Assembly (NCBI GenBank): GCA_019913005.1
Contig: JAIOHL010000177.1
Span: forward strand, 37,165 to 101,164
From: Anaerolineae bacterium
GTDB taxonomy: Bacteria; Chloroflexota; Anaerolineae; Aggregatilineales; J027
Reading direction: 5' to 3'
DNA: 64,000 bases
This document shows, one piece after another, positions 9,747 through 56,016 of this stretch; within the stretch, counting starts at the first letter, position 1, and every line of letters begins with the position of its first letter. The notes under the pieces were generated by a model that did no database searches, had not been told where the DNA came from, and saw nothing but the letters and a program-made list of their open reading frames with translations. The translations under genes were made by a program, and so were the position numbers.

Positions 9747-11272
9747 TGACAACTAGGCCAATACAAAGTATATCAACAGAGTTTTCCATCAAGGGCTATC
9801 TGGCTTCGCGCCGGATGGCCTTTGCCCCTTTGATTTTGATATTTTTCAGTGGCATGAATCTTATTTTGATACAGTGGGTTTTGGTGCGGGAACTCACCGC
9901 GCTTTTGTTTGGTACCGAATTGGTTATCTTGCTAGTGAGCGCCGCTTATTTTCTGGGGATTTCGGTGGGGTATGTACTATCAAAACCCATTCACCTGAAT
10001 CATTTAAAGCCGCTGGCAGTCCTGACCCTGATCGTGCATTTAACCCTGCCCATCTGGTTTAGATTAATGGTGACTGGGCTGGATGGGGTGGGAGCCTATC
10101 CAGTCGCGTTTGTGCTGCTGCCTTTGCTGACGCCCTTTGTTGTCTCGGCTTTCTACAGCATCTTTTTACCGCTGTTGATAGATCATCAATCGGGCAGTTT
10201 AACCGAACTCTACAGCCTCGAATTGGTGGGGTCGGTCTGTGGTGTTGCGATATTGGTAATGCTGGGTGGGCTTGGATTACAGACCGTTTATATCCTGTAC
10301 GGCGCGGGCCTCTTGGCAATCCTCGCGGCACTAAAGATCAAGCGAACTTGGCTGGCCTTCATGACCGTTGCGGCGGGTCTCTGGTTAGTGGTTCTGCCAA
10401 CATTAAACACATGGAGCAATACCCTTTGGTATGTTCAGTTACGGAATTTGCCAGCGGGAAGCAAAACATTATTTTCCGGCTACAGTGCCTATCAAAAAGT
10501 GGATGTCCTCGAAACACCCTATGGAAAGCATTATCTCTATTTAGACGGCCTCGAACATTTCGGCTCGTATAGCGGCGAGCGATTAAATGTGGTCATGGGC
10601 CAAATTCCAGCCGCTTTGTTACAGCCCCCAAATGCCCTCGTGGTCGGGGCAGGCTCGATGCAGATGGAAGCCCTCATTGCCGAACACACTGGATACGTCA
10701 CGACGGTAGAGCTAGACCCGATGGTGGGGGAGGTCAGCCAACGCTATTTTACGCGCTATAACCACATGGATACCCTAACCAATCATCGCCTTATCATTGA
10801 TGACGCCAAACATTTTTTGGCAAATACCCATGCCCGCTATGACCTAGTCGCAACCGATGTACCAGCGGCTTTTTCGATTCAAACCGCTACCCTCTATTCC
10901 GAATCATTTTATCAATCTATTGCCGACCATTTAACTCCTCAAGGTGTTTTAGTGGTGGGATTAACCAGCACCTTCGCGCCGGATGATTTAGTCTCTCGGC
11001 GGATTGCAGCGTCGCTGTTAGTTGTTTTTGATGAGGTCATGGTCATTACGGCTCCTTCGGCGGGGTGGAGTTTTGCCTACGCCAGCAACGACATGCCGTT
11101 TGGCCGCGCTGAGGTTGAGACAGCATTGCAGGCCCGGTATGAAACGGGTTACGTGATTTATGATACCCTTGCTGTAGAAACCGTCGTGGGCGATGCCAAA
11201 CCTATTACCCTCGATTCAATGAATATTGTACTGAGGGTCAGTTTTGACCGAATCAAAAGCCGTTTTGAGTAG
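9746..11272 (+). CDS. membrane spermidine synthase-like (aminopropyltransferase fold) protein
   Basis: A 508-aa protein with an N-terminal half of about six to seven membrane helices (residues 25-215). It is followed by a soluble Rossmann-type methyltransferase/aminopropyltransferase domain (about 250-490). That domain has LVVGAGSMQMEAL as the nucleotide loop, VTTVELDP as the acidic strand end and DLVATDVPA as the motif IV-like region. The canonical GGGDG of spermidine synthase is replaced by VGAGS, so polyamine synthesis is doubtful. Fused membrane/SpeE-like proteins of this type are widespread and poorly characterised. The start at 9746 overlaps the preceding stop by one base, indicating coupling to the secreted DUF5666 protein. 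Confidence 0.78.
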   Translation: MTTRPIQSISTEFSIKGYLASRRMAFAPLILIFFSGMNLILIQWVLVRELTALLFGTELVILLVSAAYFLGISVGYVLSKPIHLNHLKPLAVLTLIVHLTLPIWFRLMVTGLDGVGAYPVAFVLLPLLTPFVVSAFYSIFLPLLIDHQSGSLTELYSLELVGSVCGVAILVMLGGLGLQTVYILYGAGLLAILAALKIKRTWLAFMTVAAGLWLVVLPTLNTWSNTLWYVQLRNLPAGSKTLFSGYSAYQKVDVLETPYGKHYLYLDGLEHFGSYSGERLNVVMGQIPAALLQPPNALVVGAGSMQMEALIAEHTGYVTTVELDPMVGEVSQRYFTRYNHMDTLTNHRLIIDDAKHFLANTHARYDLVATDVPAAFSIQTATLYSESFYQSIADHLTPQGVLVVGLTSTFAPDDLVSRRIAASLLVVFDEVMVITAPSAGWSFAYASNDMPFGRAEVETALQARYETGYVIYDTLAVETVVGDAKPITLDSMNIVLRVSFDRIKSRFE

Positions 11273-48380: not shown

Positions 48381-48630
48381 ATACTGTGTTATTCGATGTT
48401 ACGATTTTGCTCCACTAACGATACAGTCTACTATTATAGACGTAACCAGCGATGGATGTGCGCCGCCTGCCCGCCCACCGATTTCCCTACGCCTCATGAT
48501 TCATAATATAGAGGTTTAGGCTTTTTTAAACTTCTTGACACAAAACAAACGTTCTGTTACCCTGTAATAAACCAAGAACAAGTGTTTTATCGCTTTGTGG
48601 CTATTGGAGATGTTTTTTGGGAGGTGGCCG

Positions 48631-49581
48631 ATGGGCGCACGACAGTTACCATTGTTTGAATCAGCCAACGGGCGTGAACATCGTCTGACTGGTCGCAGCA
48701 CACTTGCCGAAGCCGTAGTGCCATTTCAAGCCTATTTACGCGGTGAAGGCAAAACCCAAAACACCCTTATCAGTTTTACGTCGGATATGCGCGTGCTGAC
48801 CGAATTTTTCGGGCCAGATATGGCGCTTGGCAAGATTAGTACCGCACGCCTGAATGAATTTTTGCACTGGCTGGAGCACGGACGCGGAATTCCATGCAGT
48901 CGCAAATCCTACGCTCGGCGTGTGACGACCCTCAAGGTCTTTTTCAAATGGCTGCAAGAAGATCAAGTCCGCCGTGACAATCCTGCCGAGCCAATTTTGC
49001 AGCGGTCTGGCCCTGCACCCTTACAAGCGATCTTGACCGAAGCCGAAATCGAGCAGATGCTGGTCTATTGTGAATCGTTGGCCTATGCCGAAAAACCCGA
49101 TTCGCGCCCCTATGTCCTGTTTAAACTTTTGCTGGATACAGGGATTAAAAAGAGCGAAACGGTGCAAATGACTACTGAGGATATTGAGCGCACTAACCCG
49201 CGTCAGCCTATGCTCGTCATCGGTCACAAAAATCGCCAAAACATCTTTCAAGAACGGCGTGTTCCCCTCGACCCCACTTGGCCCGTGATGTTGGAACGTT
49301 ATCTAGCCGAACATAAACCCAAAGGCGGACGCATCTTCGACTGTACCGCCCGCAATTTGGAATATGTGCTCACCGATACGGCGAAGGCGGCAGGGATTGA
49401 ATCGCGCATGTCGTTTGAAACCCTGCGTTGGACATGTGCTGTGCGAGATTATCGAGCGGGAATGGGCCTTGAAACCCTGCGCGAGAAGATGGGCCTCAGC
49501 AAAATTAGCTGGCGCGAGACGAGCCAGAAAATTATGAGGCTGGCGGCAGGGGAGACGATGGAAGAACTGGTTGAGGATTAA
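48631..49581 (+). CDS. tyrosine-recombinase-fold protein lacking catalytic residues
   Basis: The ATG at 48631 has GGGAGG 6 nt upstream; the frame is open 12 codons further up. The 316-aa product has a SAM-like N-terminal core-binding domain (about 35-125, VPFQAYLRGEGKTQNTLISF) and a C-terminal domain laid out like XerC/XerD. However, the first catalytic Arg position reads DTGIKKSETV (Lys), the box-II HxxR reads FETLRW (Glu for His), and no LGH...Y box is present; the equivalent region is MGLSKISWRETSQKIM. It is therefore probably a DNA-binding, not strand-exchanging, protein. It overlaps the convergent RimI-like gene by 50 nt. Confidence 0.78.
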   Translation: MGARQLPLFESANGREHRLTGRSTLAEAVVPFQAYLRGEGKTQNTLISFTSDMRVLTEFFGPDMALGKISTARLNEFLHWLEHGRGIPCSRKSYARRVTTLKVFFKWLQEDQVRRDNPAEPILQRSGPAPLQAILTEAEIEQMLVYCESLAYAEKPDSRPYVLFKLLLDTGIKKSETVQMTTEDIERTNPRQPMLVIGHKNRQNIFQERRVPLDPTWPVMLERYLAEHKPKGGRIFDCTARNLEYVLTDTAKAAGIESRMSFETLRWTCAVRDYRAGMGLETLREKMGLSKISWRETSQKIMRLAAGETMEELVED

Positions 49582-53015: not shown

Positions 53016-53120
53016 GGCACGGGCAAAGGGGACGCTGTGGGATATATCTTATTATGAGATATGGAGGGAGAGTGCTTGGCCCTCACAACCACCGATAACC
53101 CACCTCTATCGGCCCGCGCC
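53016..53120 (-). ncRNA. Y RNA-like unit B (distal end of the array, no clear tRNA-like module)
   Basis: The terminal stem GGCGCGGGC/GCCCGTGCC closes the unit. The 5' strand on the minus strand continues CCGATAGAGGTGGGTTATCGG, the pattern of the Ro-binding stem of Y RNAs (written here in parts: CCGATAGAGG and TGGGTTATCGG). The 3' strand has CCCACAGCG then CCCCTTTGCCC. The insert lacks the TTCGA T loop of the neighbouring units and instead has an ATATCT/GAGATAT hairpin. It is 26 nt from unit C. Confidence 0.65.
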
Positions 53121-53146
53121 TCATATCTATCAACATTTTATGGTGA

Positions 53147-53293
53147 GGCATGGGCAAAAAGGGTGATATGGGAGAATGTCATTCCCCTTTGCCACTCGGG
53201 ACATCCCGTGCAGCATCCCGCACAGGAGAGGGACTCGAACCCTCGAAGGCATCCACCAAATGATCCGATAACCCATATCTATCGGCCCATGCC
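53147..53293 (-). ncRNA. YrlA-like Y RNA, unit C, tRNA-like module with class-II-type D arm
   Basis: The terminal stem GGCATGGGC/GCCCATGCC is perfect, and the inner stem GATATGGG/CCCATATC is perfect. Between them, on the minus strand and in this order, come a T arm (GAGGG, TTCGAGT, CCCTC), then an acceptor-like stem TCCTGTGC/GCACGGGA closed by an 8-nt loop, then a D arm (TCCC, GAGTGGCAAA, GGGG). The order is circularly permuted relative to a tRNA. The D arm resembles tRNA-Leu/Ser. A 105 to 160-nt size and this layout match YrlA RNAs, whose tRNA-like module replaces the anticodon arm by the Y stem. Confidence 0.85.
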
Positions 53294-53314
53294 ATTACAA
53301 TCAAATCTGAGGGT

Positions 53315-53442
53315 GGTACAGGCAAAGAATCGTGTCTGGTAAAAGCTCTATCCAATTAAGCTACTGATACCGAAGCATCAGGCAGGACTCGAACCCGCAC
53401 CCCATCGTTGGAGACGATAACCCAGTCACAGCGGCCCGTACC
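53315..53442 (-). ncRNA. YrlA-like Y RNA, unit D, acceptor stem closed by TTCG
   Basis: The outer stem is GGTACGGGC/GCCTGTACC. On the minus strand the unit continues CGC...TGGGTTATC, then the T arm GCGGG-TTCGAGT-CCTGC (plus 53382-53398). The acceptor strands CTGATGC and GTATCAG follow, paired over 7 bp and joined by a TTCG tetraloop (53364-53381). The D arm is GCTT-AATTGGATA-GAGC (53345-53361). The D loop carries the GG that docks with the T loop in tRNA. The order is permuted, and the anticodon arm is replaced by the Y stem. Confidence 0.88.
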
Positions 53443-53465
53443 ACTTTATCCGATTTATGTGAGAG

Positions 53466-53626
53466 GGTGTGGACAAAAGGGGCGACATTGGAAATTTGTT
53501 CCTGCTATCGTCCACTCAGCCACAGTATTGAGTCACCCCAACACCGGAAGGATTCGAACCTTCGATAGAGTAACAGACCCTATAGGGGGAAGTCAGCCCG
53601 ATAACCAATATCTATCGGCCCACACC
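53466..53626 (-). ncRNA. YrlA-like Y RNA, unit E, with long variable-type arm
   Basis: The outer stem is GGTGTGGGC/GTCCACACC. The 5' strand holds CCGATAGATATTGGTTATCGG in Y-type order, with a CCAATGTCG partner. A hairpin-rich stretch (CCCCCTATAGGG) sits where a long variable arm would be. The T arm is GAAGG-TTCGAAT-CCTTC, the acceptor-like stem CGGTGTTG/CAATACTG (8 bp with G-U pairs) and the D arm GCT-GAGTGGACGAT-AGC. This is the longest unit (161 nt). Confidence 0.82.
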
Positions 53627-53653
53627 CATTTTGCTATTCGATTGTTAAAAACC

Positions 53654-53786
53654 AGTGCGGACAAAAAGGTGCATATGGGTAAACCTTCACCAGTTGCCTA
53701 GTGAAGTCCCGCCACCATGAGTTTAGGGGTGGCGGTCTGGAGTCGAACCATTGTTAACCGATAACCCACACACGTCGGCCCACACC
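53654..53786 (-). ncRNA. YrlA-like Y RNA, unit F
   Basis: The outer stem is GGTGTGGGC/GTCCGCACT, with G-U pairs. The 5' strand reads CCGACGTG then TGTGGGTTATCGG. The T arm is short (TGG-TTCGACT-CCA), the acceptor-like stem CCGCCACC/GGTGGCGG is a perfect 8 bp, and the D arm is CTTCAC-TAGGCAACTG-GTGAAG with GG in the loop. The 3' strand has CCCATATGCACCTTTTTGTCC in parts. The gap to unit E is 27 nt. Confidence 0.82.
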
Positions 53787-53806
53787 GATTGTTCAGCATT
53801 TTGGAA

Positions 53807-53933
53807 GATGCAGGCAAAGGAGCGTATCTGGAATCGCGCTCTGCCATTGAGCTACAGATTCAGTTGAATCTGGTGGGAGTCGAACCCACACCTCGTCGTC
53901 CCGAACGATAACCCAAACACAACGGCCCACATC
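53807..53933 (-). ncRNA. YrlA-like Y RNA, unit G, best tRNA mimic of the array
   Basis: The outer stem is GATGTGGGC/GCCTGCATC. The Y-type 5' strand contains TTTGGGTTATCG. The T arm is GTGGG-TTCGACT-CCCAC (plus 53873-53889). The acceptor-like stem CAGATTC/GAATCTG is a perfect 7 bp with an AACT loop (53855-53872), and the D arm is GCTC-AATGGCA-GAGC (53838-53852). All three arms are canonical in size, in permuted order. The gap to unit F is 20 nt. Confidence 0.88.
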
Positions 53934-53948
53934 TTCAGATATTCAATT

Positions 53949-54012
53949 TTGAGAGTTTCGGAATGATAGCGTCTGAGCAGACCGAAATCTACGAAGTCAC
54001 CATCACTCTCAA
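53949..54012 (-). other. structured spacer between minimal Y RNA and the array
   Basis: Nested inverted repeats TTGAGAGT/ACTCTCAA (53949-53956 and 54005-54012) and TTTCGG/CCGAAA (53956-53961 and 53982-53987). A further hairpin CTTTCTT/AAGAAAG lies at 54047-54063. The motifs of the Y stem (GGGTTATC) are absent. It may be a processing structure in the polycistronic transcript or a diverged unit. Confidence 0.4.
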
Positions 54013-54114
54013 CTCTGCCGCATAAAATTTTGGTTAAGCCTGCCTTCTTTCTTGCCAAGAAAGCGCATCGGGCTATCAAACCAACATTTCTTGTGGCCAA
54101 TTTTGGTGATAGGT

Positions 54115-54179
54115 GGTGTGGGCAAGTTGCCGTAAATGGGGTCATTTCAGTTGATAACCCATTTACTCCGGCCCACACC
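54115..54179 (-). ncRNA. minimal Y RNA, unit I, directly downstream of rsr
   Basis: A 65-nt unit with the perfect outer stem GGTGTGGGC/GCCCACACC (extended by T and A on each side). After CCGGA comes the inner stem GTAAATGGG/CCCATTTAC, also perfect, and TTATCA follows the inner 5' strand as in Y RNAs. The loop is only about 17 nt, so there is no tRNA-like module. It begins 15 nt after the rsr stop and would be cut from the rsr transcript. Confidence 0.82.
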
Positions 54180-54193
54180 AATTTTATTTTACG

Positions 54194-55897
54194 TCAAATG
54201 GCGCCTCGACCAAAATCCGCAATCAACGCCGGAGCCGAGGCATCGAAACCTACAACGTCCAACATCCCCGCGTCGTTCGGGTCGGCAATTGTAAATCCAT
54301 TCGACACCATCCCGACCACGACCAGTTTCGACGGAATGCCCATCTTCTCACGATATTGAGCAAGAGCTTGAACTGGGTGTAGCTGAGGATTCGCCCACGT
54401 CTCGCTATCGGTGTAGATGACAAACGTATCCACTGCGATTTTGTGTTCTAGCGCATACAGCATCGGTTGAGCGCAGTCTGTCGCCCCGAAAGGCAACCCA
54501 TTCGTTATGCTGACCACATCTGTCAACCGCATCCGCGCCGAGATGTTCAGCGGCACGATTTTGTCTTGGAACGAGATCACCGTGTAATTCGGCTCCGAAC
54601 GCGCCGTGACCATTGCCATTGCCGCACTGCCTTCACGCGGCGTTAACCCCGGCACACCTGCAACCATCCCGCCCGACATCGAACCCGATACGTCCAATGC
54701 CAGCATGATGCGCTTGTTAGTCGGCTCGACGTTTTTGAAAGCTAGTTCAAAAGCCATGTCGAGCGCATCCAAGACACGTGGGGTAGACGTCCAACCAGCC
54801 GATTTTTCAGCCCCGGCCTGCCCCCGACGATTGACCTTACCCTTGAGCGCGTACCCCAGCGAATAGGCCCGCAGCGCAATCAGCACCGCGATGGGGTGAA
54901 CTCGTGCCTTCCGCAGCACATCGGCATTGGTCAGGCGTTCAACCACCGTGTTTTCCGCCTCGCTGAGTGGCTTCAGTAGGCCAATCCGCGACATCACCCC
55001 CAAGTTACGGATGAGGGCAGTCATCGGCATTTTGGTCAACAGCGCCGCCCAAACATCCGGGTCATTCAGCCATTGGGTTGGCAGTGCTTCACGCGGCAGA
55101 TCATAGGCTTCAATCAGCTTGACCACCGTAGCTGCATCAGCCGCCTTCTGGACTCGTTCAAACGCCCAGATAAACGCAAGAGCCTGATCTTCCGGCACAT
55201 TCAAAGCCTCGGCCCATTCCAGCGGATTAGTGACCGCCTCACCTGTTTCGCCCGTGCCGTTTTCTTTGGGCTTATACGTCACCCATTTGAAAATCGCGCC
55301 CTGTGTATCATTGGCGGGTGTCGGGTGCGCCAACCGAAGGGTGTCGGTGTGCGTCCAGCCGTTGCGCTGACGATATTTCACCAGTTGGTAAGCCAGCGAA
55401 CGGTTATCCATCGCCAAATACCAACCACCTACCGCTCGACGCAAGCCGCGCCCCCAGCCACGCATCCCATTGACCAGTTCCGCAAAGGTGAACAAATGCG
55501 TTCCTGTGCGGCACACTTCGGGCAATGCCTTAAATGCCGCCTGCCGGGTTGCCTCATCGCCTTTGGTCACTGCCAACGCTAGGGCAAAAATCGCCGGATC
55601 GTTTTTCGGCGCACGGCCTTCTTGCGAAATCGCTACGATTTCATTGACCGCACGCACCCCGTCGGTTTGGATACACTTGAGGACGTTGTTGGCGTTTTCC
55701 AGCGTTAGAGCACGCTCACTGGCATAATACGACCCGCCTTCGCTCCCCAAAATGAGAAACCGACGCAGGCGACCCCACTCATCCACCGCCCAGCTATACC
55801 CACCTGCCGAGTTTGCAACCTGCGTTGTCCCCGGCAAGGGCGCATTTTGCGGTGTGGGTTCTTTGGTAATCAGGTGTGTCAAATATTTCTTCATCAC
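54194..55897 (-). CDS. rsr: Ro60 ortholog, TROVE and vWA domain RNA-binding protein
   Basis: A 567-aa protein. The TROVE HEAT-repeat ring domain covers about 20-370 (EWGRLRRFLILGSEGGSYYA, FAELVNGMRGWGRGLRRAV, THTDTLRLAHPTP, PMTALIRNLGVMSRIGLL). The vWA domain has a complete MIDAS: DVSGS at 402-406, Thr/Asp in GATDC at 473-474 and TDSE at 496-499. Rsr binds Y RNAs on its outer surface and RNA 3' ends in its central hole, and with PNPase it takes part in RNA decay and rRNA maturation in Deinococcus. AAGGCGG precedes the ATG. Y RNA-like genes lie on both sides on the same strand, with no terminator between, so one transcript could carry all. No rtcB, rtcA or pnp is adjacent. Confidence 0.96.
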   Translation of the reverse strand: MMKKYLTHLITKEPTPQNAPLPGTTQVANSAGGYSWAVDEWGRLRRFLILGSEGGSYYASERALTLENANNVLKCIQTDGVRAVNEIVAISQEGRAPKNDPAIFALALAVTKGDEATRQAAFKALPEVCRTGTHLFTFAELVNGMRGWGRGLRRAVGGWYLAMDNRSLAYQLVKYRQRNGWTHTDTLRLAHPTPANDTQGAIFKWVTYKPKENGTGETGEAVTNPLEWAEALNVPEDQALAFIWAFERVQKAADAATVVKLIEAYDLPREALPTQWLNDPDVWAALLTKMPMTALIRNLGVMSRIGLLKPLSEAENTVVERLTNADVLRKARVHPIAVLIALRAYSLGYALKGKVNRRGQAGAEKSAGWTSTPRVLDALDMAFELAFKNVEPTNKRIMLALDVSGSMSGGMVAGVPGLTPREGSAAMAMVTARSEPNYTVISFQDKIVPLNISARMRLTDVVSITNGLPFGATDCAQPMLYALEHKIAVDTFVIYTDSETWANPQLHPVQALAQYREKMGIPSKLVVVGMVSNGFTIADPNDAGMLDVVGFDASAPALIADFGRGAI

Positions 55898-55927
55898 CGC
55901 ACCGCCTTAACAATAAACCGTCTGAGG

Positions 55928-56008
55928 TGGTGGGCAAAAATCGCATTTGGGAGCAAGCATCGCTTTACCTTAACAGGGTAATGATAACCCAAACACATCG
56001 GCCCACCA
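55928..56008 (-). ncRNA. Y RNA, unit J, upstream of rsr
   Basis: An 81-nt unit with terminal stem TGGTGGGC/GCCCACCA. The 5' strand continues CCGATGTG then TTTGGGTTATC. The inner stem TTTGGG/CCCAAA and the 3' stretch CGATTTTTGCCC follow the Y pattern. The insert has no T-arm motif. A promoter 8 nt upstream (56017-56044) places the expected transcription start at the 5' end of the RNA. A Y RNA directly 5' of rsr is the arrangement known from Deinococcus radiodurans. The unit ends 30 nt before the rsr start. Confidence 0.85.
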
Positions 56009-56016
56009 GAATCTAT

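Follow-up and report, generated by a model that had tools for sequence, protein, structure and literature searches.

Bacterial Y RNAs are associated with Rsr, the orthologue of Ro60, and the systems described so far provide the framework for the locus reported here. YrlA (RF02553) has a Y stem that closes both of its ends, contains T, acceptor and D arms in permuted order, as the account of its arms in PMC8394870 sets out, and is encoded beside rsr. In Salmonella, Rsr and two Y RNAs belong to the rsr-yrlBA-rtcBA operon, which PMC7790460, in the part that deals with it, ties to tRNA damage, and in Deinococcus Rsr, a Y RNA and PNPase form a complex (RYPER; described in portions of PMC8394870 and PMC4726728). 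The locus reported here bears on the purpose of bacterial Ro60 and on the imitation of tRNAs by its Y RNAs. Here we describe an rsr gene with eight Y RNA-like units in a 64,000-nucleotide stretch of an Anaerolineae genome (Chloroflexota; contig JAIOHL010000177.1, positions 37,165 to 101,164), the whole of which is referred to as the window; some of the units display the loops of real tRNA anticodons, others contain permuted tRNA bodies, and together they may be a set of decoys for RNA-cutting toxins. The locus itself is of the known Ro60/Y RNA kind. It differs from YrlA in that the array units fall under the Rfam cut-off, in the class II bodies of some of them, in the eight units per locus, and in a hairpin at the anticodon position, often with a real anticodon loop, where the Rfam YrlA consensus has none. 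It differs from the Salmonella operon in having eight Y RNAs rather than two and in the position of rtcB, which lies on a contig other than that of rsr; with the Deinococcus complex it shares the Rsr family and a PNPase gene.

In many units a hairpin stands directly after GGGUUAUC, and its 7-nt loop is that of a real anticodon loop. The rule by which these were scored takes the 30 bases that begin at the TATC of GGGUUAUC and asks for a hairpin with 3 bp or more whose loop of 7 nt is exactly that of one of this genome's own tRNAs, which supply 45 anticodon loops (positions 32-38); it was fixed after examples had been seen by eye in the genus. Unit U1 (55927..56009, minus strand, as are all units of the window) carries the hairpin UUACC-CUGUUAA-GGUAA at 55965..55981, with the loop of tRNA-Asn(GUU), and U3 (53807..53933) carries UCG-UUCGGGA-CGA at 53896..53908, with the loop of tRNA-Pro(CGG). 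Unit U6 (53315..53442) has a hairpin of the same kind, UAUCG-UCUCCAA-CGAUG at 53403..53419, with a 7-nt loop that is not an exact anticodon loop. Units of congeners display the loops of Ile(GAU), Cys(GCA), Trp(CCA), Met(CAU) and Gln(UUG), and those of other families the loops of Lys(CUU), Asp(GUC) and Asn(GUU); across the five genomes of the genus, 15 of 41 rule-tested units have an exact loop.

These matches are well in excess of chance. The discovery set comprised 78 units with 64 distinct 30-base segments, drawn from 17 loci of which 16 gave units (G223 gave none), and omitted 14 motif places judged by hand to be spurious, either inside genes or tRNAs or duplicates. An exact anticodon loop was present in 14 of the 64 segments, compared with a mean of 0.20 in dinucleotide shuffles (maximum 2 in 2000); homologues are counted among the 14, in that the Asn unit U1, the Gln unit and the Met unit each contribute two segments. 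Units that escaped the motif are U6 of G001, U1 of G003, one unit of G004 and those with TTACC in G056. As background, 63 of 17355 segments match, and among TATC segments without the Y motif 1 of 1705. Outside the discovery set the segments are all motif places on both strands, and are not vetted as Y RNAs. A held-out collection of 25 loci (15 from Chloroflexota, 8 from phages and 2 from plasmids) gave 4 matches in 52 segments where 0.14 were expected (maximum 3 in 2000 shuffles); two of these come from lineages not represented before, with an Asn loop in G723 and a Ser(GCU) loop in the Gordonia phage BearBQ, and the other two are homologues of a Picosynechococcus unit in the earlier set. Eight phage and plasmid loci that had first been viewed by eye gave 2 matches in 18 segments under the rule, and 3 in 24 when it was widened to TTACC. 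As a predicted feature, the displayed anticodon loop extends past this class, and most segments from elsewhere match none of this genome's loops exactly.

We note that three further rsr loci (L105, L107 and L108) adjoin long runs of tRNA genes, with 20, 11 and 10 ARAGORN calls respectively, and that one of the calls in L105, for tRNA-Asn at 10546-10617, overlaps a Y unit whose loop is that of Asn. A sequence rule that looks for a 7-nt anticodon loop just after GGGUUAUC helps to find RNAs that gene finders may call tRNAs, such as this one.

The loops are exchanged between species on otherwise constant stems. The U3 stem is constant, and its loop is UUCGGGA in three genomes of the genus, UUCGGGG in one, and CUGAUAA, that of Ile(GAU), in G002; the U5 loop is CUGACUU in the window and the Cys(GCA) loop CUGCAAA in G002. 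A parallel is seen in phages, where Cashline has a Cys(GCA) loop and a similar unit of BearBQ a Ser(GCU) loop. Recent copying of tRNA anticodon arms is ruled out as a source, as none of nine tested stem-loops occurs in this genome's tRNAs; the nine differ from real anticodon arms, and therefore the loop alone has been retained. The Deinococcus complex reportedly has a single constant Y RNA, whereas the array here is a set of varied loops. The original prediction had proposed a set of interchangeable RNA adaptors on one Rsr ring, and the units do differ in their inner parts; the proposal was generic, however, and missed the permuted tRNA modules of four units, the exact anticodon loops of two, and the exchange of loops on constant stems.

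At least four of the units, U3, U5 (53466..53626), U6 and U7 (53147..53293), contain circularly permuted tRNA modules composed of a T arm, a closed acceptor stem and a D arm. In the minimum-energy folds of U3 and U6 the Y stem encloses a tRNA whose opening lies between its anticodon and D arms, and the order is a hairpin, a 5-bp T arm whose loop has 7 nt, an acceptor stem of 7 bp capped by a short loop, which in U6 is UUCG, and a D arm. Sequence comparison gives U5 and U7 the same order of arms with a class II body. The body of U7, a unit without an anticodon hairpin, is closest to Tyr(GUA), with a summed score of 1.31 against 0.83 for the next; its D arm is nearly that of the genome's own tRNA-Tyr, and by the T arm alone Tyr ranks only fourth. 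The nearest isotype of U5 is Ser, loosely. Derivation of body and anticodon from one tRNA is unsupported by the closest-tRNA ranking, U7 being the only unit of the window with a clear nearest isotype and U5 having a loose one. Units U1, U2 (54115..54179) and U8 (53016..53120) have no tRNA body, and U4 (53654..53786) has a degenerate one, with a T-arm-like and an acceptor-like part recognised from its fold and tRNA ranking.

Several tRNA-like arrangements were observed elsewhere. A unit of G003 appears by eye to be a complete tRNA-like sequence in normal order, and its minimum-energy fold is no clean cloverleaf. Segments of L104 (5252-5373, plus strand) and L109 (5803-5931, minus strand) resemble normal-order tRNA-like molecules in which a Y stem with a sealed end replaces the anticodon arm and the acceptor end is open, and the folds agree in outline. 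In L110 (4587-5350, minus strand) complete small Y RNAs seem by eye to lie within the loop at the acceptor end of larger Y RNAs of the permuted-tRNA type. In L026 (1470-3030, plus strand) ten T-loop motifs stand ahead of a distant TROVE relative (35% identity); by eye, several of them fall in permuted-tRNA units whose outer stem is of another form, and four tRNAs are called in this stretch by ARAGORN.

A second kind of putative target is found outside the window's family. One unit of G077 and one of G056, both from other families, carry CUAGUACGAGAGGA and AGUACGAGAGGAC, the core of the 23S sarcin-ricin loop, whereas the window itself has no such unit. The cores sit at the same place, directly after GGGUUAUC or GGGUUACC, on otherwise different stems. 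The 13-14 base match to 23S rRNA is not strong by length alone, a reading that we reject because shuffled segments also match E. coli rRNA at some point over 14-15 bases; the case is made because two units match the same known site at the same Y RNA position. The special sarcin-ricin hairpin is absent from the predicted folds of these units; that hairpin cannot be drawn under standard pairing rules. In the searchable literature on Y RNAs, YrlA, Rsr and Ro60 we found no report of anticodon loops in Y RNAs, although an earlier mention is possible and priority is unproven; with that caution, four features are apparently new: anticodon loops on display, bodies of class II, loops swapped from one species to another, and units with the sarcin-ricin core.

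Taken together, the predicted Y stems, tRNA modules and anticodon loops, the swapping of loops among congeners, and the sarcin-ricin cores of two other families are properties of the sequences, and the reading that we favour, at a probability of roughly 0.4, is that the eight Ro60-type Y RNAs act as decoys presented by Rsr to RNA-cutting toxins. VapC toxins cut anticodon loops, and two VapCs studied cut the sarcin-ricin loop, according to the part of PMC6459853 concerned with their targets; other anticodon nucleases likewise cleave anticodon loops, as parts of PMC10264068 relate. Anticodon loops and sarcin-ricin loops are thus both VapC targets, and decoys are favoured for that reason, with sensing a close variant. 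A tRNA-like domain has been considered in this light before, in that Hughes et al., in their discussion of YrlA, suggested it as a competitive inhibitor of anticodon nucleases (PMC7790460). In the mechanism we envisage, the units would be transcribed, Rsr would bind the constant lower stem and present the exchangeable loops, and anticodon nucleases or ribosome-cutting toxins would recognise them; a decoy that is bound or cut would spare the real tRNA and rRNA, and cut decoys might be repaired or cleared by RtcB and PNPase, which are encoded elsewhere in the genomes. Genes for both are present in all five genomes of the genus.

A wider and slightly more tentative proposal is that the Y RNA loci of Ro60, whether in bacteria, on plasmids or in phages, serve as libraries of ribotoxin targets, with a constant Ro-binding stem and with loops swapped like cassettes in an arms race; the targets held in such libraries would be the anticodon loops of many tRNAs, whole permuted tRNAs, and the sarcin-ricin loop. 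Phage records with Ro-like genes number 343, and in 7 of 12 such records the examined stretch includes annotated tRNA genes; phage Ro-like genes with tRNA genes nearby therefore fit a conflict over tRNA cutting. Phage tRNAs that evade anticodon nucleases, as recounted in portions of PMC10264068, are similar in providing extra copies of tRNA features against tRNA-cutting defences, but those are working tRNAs with changed loops, whereas the Ro60-type units display loops and would be unchargeable in their closed-acceptor form. If the decoy reading holds, a single conflict over tRNA cutting would link RNA repair with the Ro-like genes and tRNA clusters of phages, and the job of bacterial Ro60 would be to shield the vulnerable sites of the translation machinery, or to sense them. 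If the loops are toxin targets, each unit predicts its own cutter, and a role for Ro60 becomes directly testable.

Several observations weigh against decoys. Six of the eight units in the window have no exact loop (2 of 8 do), 48 of the 52 held-out segments are unmatched, and the held-out excess is weaker and brings in no more than two new lineages. Sarcin-ricin units are rare, with 1 in 396 class genomes (G077; G056 was not in the sample) and 0 in viral contigs, and a wide occurrence of sarcin-ricin Y RNAs is rejected. In the experiments that PMC7790460 reports on the point, Salmonella YrlA itself was uncut by the nuclease studied. Counts of PIN genes in the genus (17, 2, 1, 4 and 10) fail to track the array; an excess of PIN genes in ten rsr-positive genomes (mean 7.3 versus 4.1, p 0.025, with six genomes that have only a distant TROVE relative counted as negative) is not significant per Mb (p 0.16). 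On these counts, decoys directed against the cell's own VapC set are rejected, and foreign toxins or phage-triggered nucleases would fit better. Expression, binding and cleavage of the units are, moreover, predictions from sequence.

It is somewhat less probable that the units serve as adaptors, their tRNA bodies and loops recruiting tRNA-binding partners such as modification enzymes, PNPase or RtcB to the Rsr ring, with one partner or substrate class per unit, as in the YrlA/RYPER model. The bodies of U3, U5, U6 and U7 and the presence of PNPase and RtcB in all five genus genomes are in keeping with this, as is the modification of YrlA by DusA and TruB and its binding of PNPase through the tRNA-like domain, as set out in the sections of PMC8394870 on these proteins. 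Adaptors leave unexplained, however, both the anticodon loops on short units without a body (U1, and the Gln and Trp units of congeners) and the sarcin-ricin units.

A far less probable variant is that the displayed loops are sensors, a bait the cutting of which would be registered, for instance when the fragments set free induce repair genes. The loop sequences that suggest decoys suggest this equally, and in Salmonella tRNA fragments activate the rsr-yrlBA-rtcBA operon, as described in part of PMC7790460; but the corresponding part of that report did not see YrlA fragments, no regulator gene was identified among the rsr neighbours, and rtcB, as noted, is on other contigs. Just as improbable is that the hairpins are stable U-turn loops whose anticodon matches come from a shared grammar without mimicry, for while N-U-NNN-R-A loops are common in Y segments (31 of 166 versus 2.5 shuffled, maximum 9 in 1000 shuffles) and several, such as CUAUAAA, CUAUGAA and CUGUGAA, are not real in this genome, real loops are in excess among distinct CUNNNAA loops (8 of 11 versus 21 of 64 by chance, p 0.008), G37 accompanies G36 as it does in tRNA (p 0.019), and the sarcin-ricin core lies outside the loop grammar. 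The loops firmly indicate a shared grammar, and their identity with real anticodon loops is moderately supported. We also note anticodon-like loops with A in the wobble position, CUAUCAC, CUAUGGA, CUAUGAA and CUAUAAA, in L115 (2387), L118 (2330), L167 (1343) and L110 (4996, minus strand); with G34 in place of A34, two of the four would be loops that this genome's tRNAs really have.

The eight units span 53016-56009 on the minus strand, with U1 upstream of rsr and U2-U8 downstream. The original prediction of a TROVE/vWA rsr gene with at least eight Y RNA-like units on its strand, six of them with spacers of 20-27 nt and all with Y RNA stems, is borne out by Pfam and Protein Data Bank (PDB) matches for the gene and by the units located; spacers of 20, 27, 23, 21 and 26 nt were measured along U3 to U8, and the gap between U2 and U3 is 181 nt. 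A strict search for the 5' motif throughout the 7.65 Mb genome gives seven matches, every one inside the rsr array; the strict motif asks for GGG, and U5, which carries GG, escapes it. In each of the eight window units the outer stem has 7 or 8 of 8 pairs. A closed outer stem was the rule by which units were selected and the upper stem was not selected on, and the latter is therefore a fair test. Among 46 distinct units from eleven genomes (52 hand-picked units with a closed outer stem), 332 of 368 upper-stem positions pair with their own partner, compared with 279.5 (sd 5.1) when partners are swapped among units; for the eight window units alone the figures are 60 of 64 and 50.3, and 1 of 5000 permutations was equally good. 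Orthologues of U6 show a compensatory exchange of G-C to A-U in the hairpin stem with the loop unchanged; the stems of the units covary.

Folding of each unit, which had also been proposed, gave z-scores from -1.5 (U8, weak) to -4.3 (U2) in seven units, with U1 at -3.6 and the long U5 left out. The covariance models proposed alongside it were less favourable: no unit matched the Rfam Y RNA or YrlA families at the gathering threshold, with U3 at 39.5 and U6 at 36 bits against a YrlA cut-off of 69. U2, a minimal unit, does pass the model of nematode stem-bulge RNAs (RF01656; 42.9, cut-off 38); these are an animal family, and the match reflects a shared Y stem with a UUAUC motif. An identity of the units as plain tRNA genes is ruled out, ARAGORN finding 0 in the window. 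By their position beside rsr, their ends paired in a lower stem and the upper stem above it, the units are predicted to be Y RNAs of the bacterial, Ro60-associated kind. The segment between U2 and U3 (53938-54112, minus strand) is kept in all five genus genomes with a CTTTCTTGGCAAGAAAG hairpin, and is possibly a further small RNA.

The rsr gene (54194..55897, minus strand) encodes a protein of 567 aa with TROVE and vWA domains (Pfam vWA_Ro60 5.6e-66, TROVE 3.2e-45), and PDB sequence matches to Xenopus Ro60 (4.6e-132) and Deinococcus Rsr (1.1e-116) identify it as a full-length Ro60 orthologue.

An rsr relative is encoded by 16 of 101 genomes, the window's own included; for ten of the 16 the identity is 56% or higher, and the ten include every one of the five genus genomes. 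A survey of unit number among relatives, suggested together with the locus, shows that the array is kept in four congeneric genomes with gain and loss of units and swapping of loops: script and eye together count 8 units in G000, 8 in G001, 9 in G002, 9 in G003 and 10 in G004. Units U1, U3, U4, U7 and U8 are present in all five, the interior of U1 being replaced in G003; among the variable units, that with a Gln loop is found in G001, G003 and G004, that with a Met loop in G002 and G004, and the Trp unit is peculiar to G002. More widely, vWA_Ro60 scores over its cut-off in 11 of 298 genomes of the class and in 16 of 400 of the phylum, and a scan of contigs with the bare protein gave four loci, all of them congeners.

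Genes neighbouring rsr include those for a hybrid response regulator/histidine kinase and a beta-lactamase-like protein. A tyrosine recombinase gene (48595-49581, plus strand; Phage_integrase 2.3e-12) lies approximately 3.4 kb off the array.

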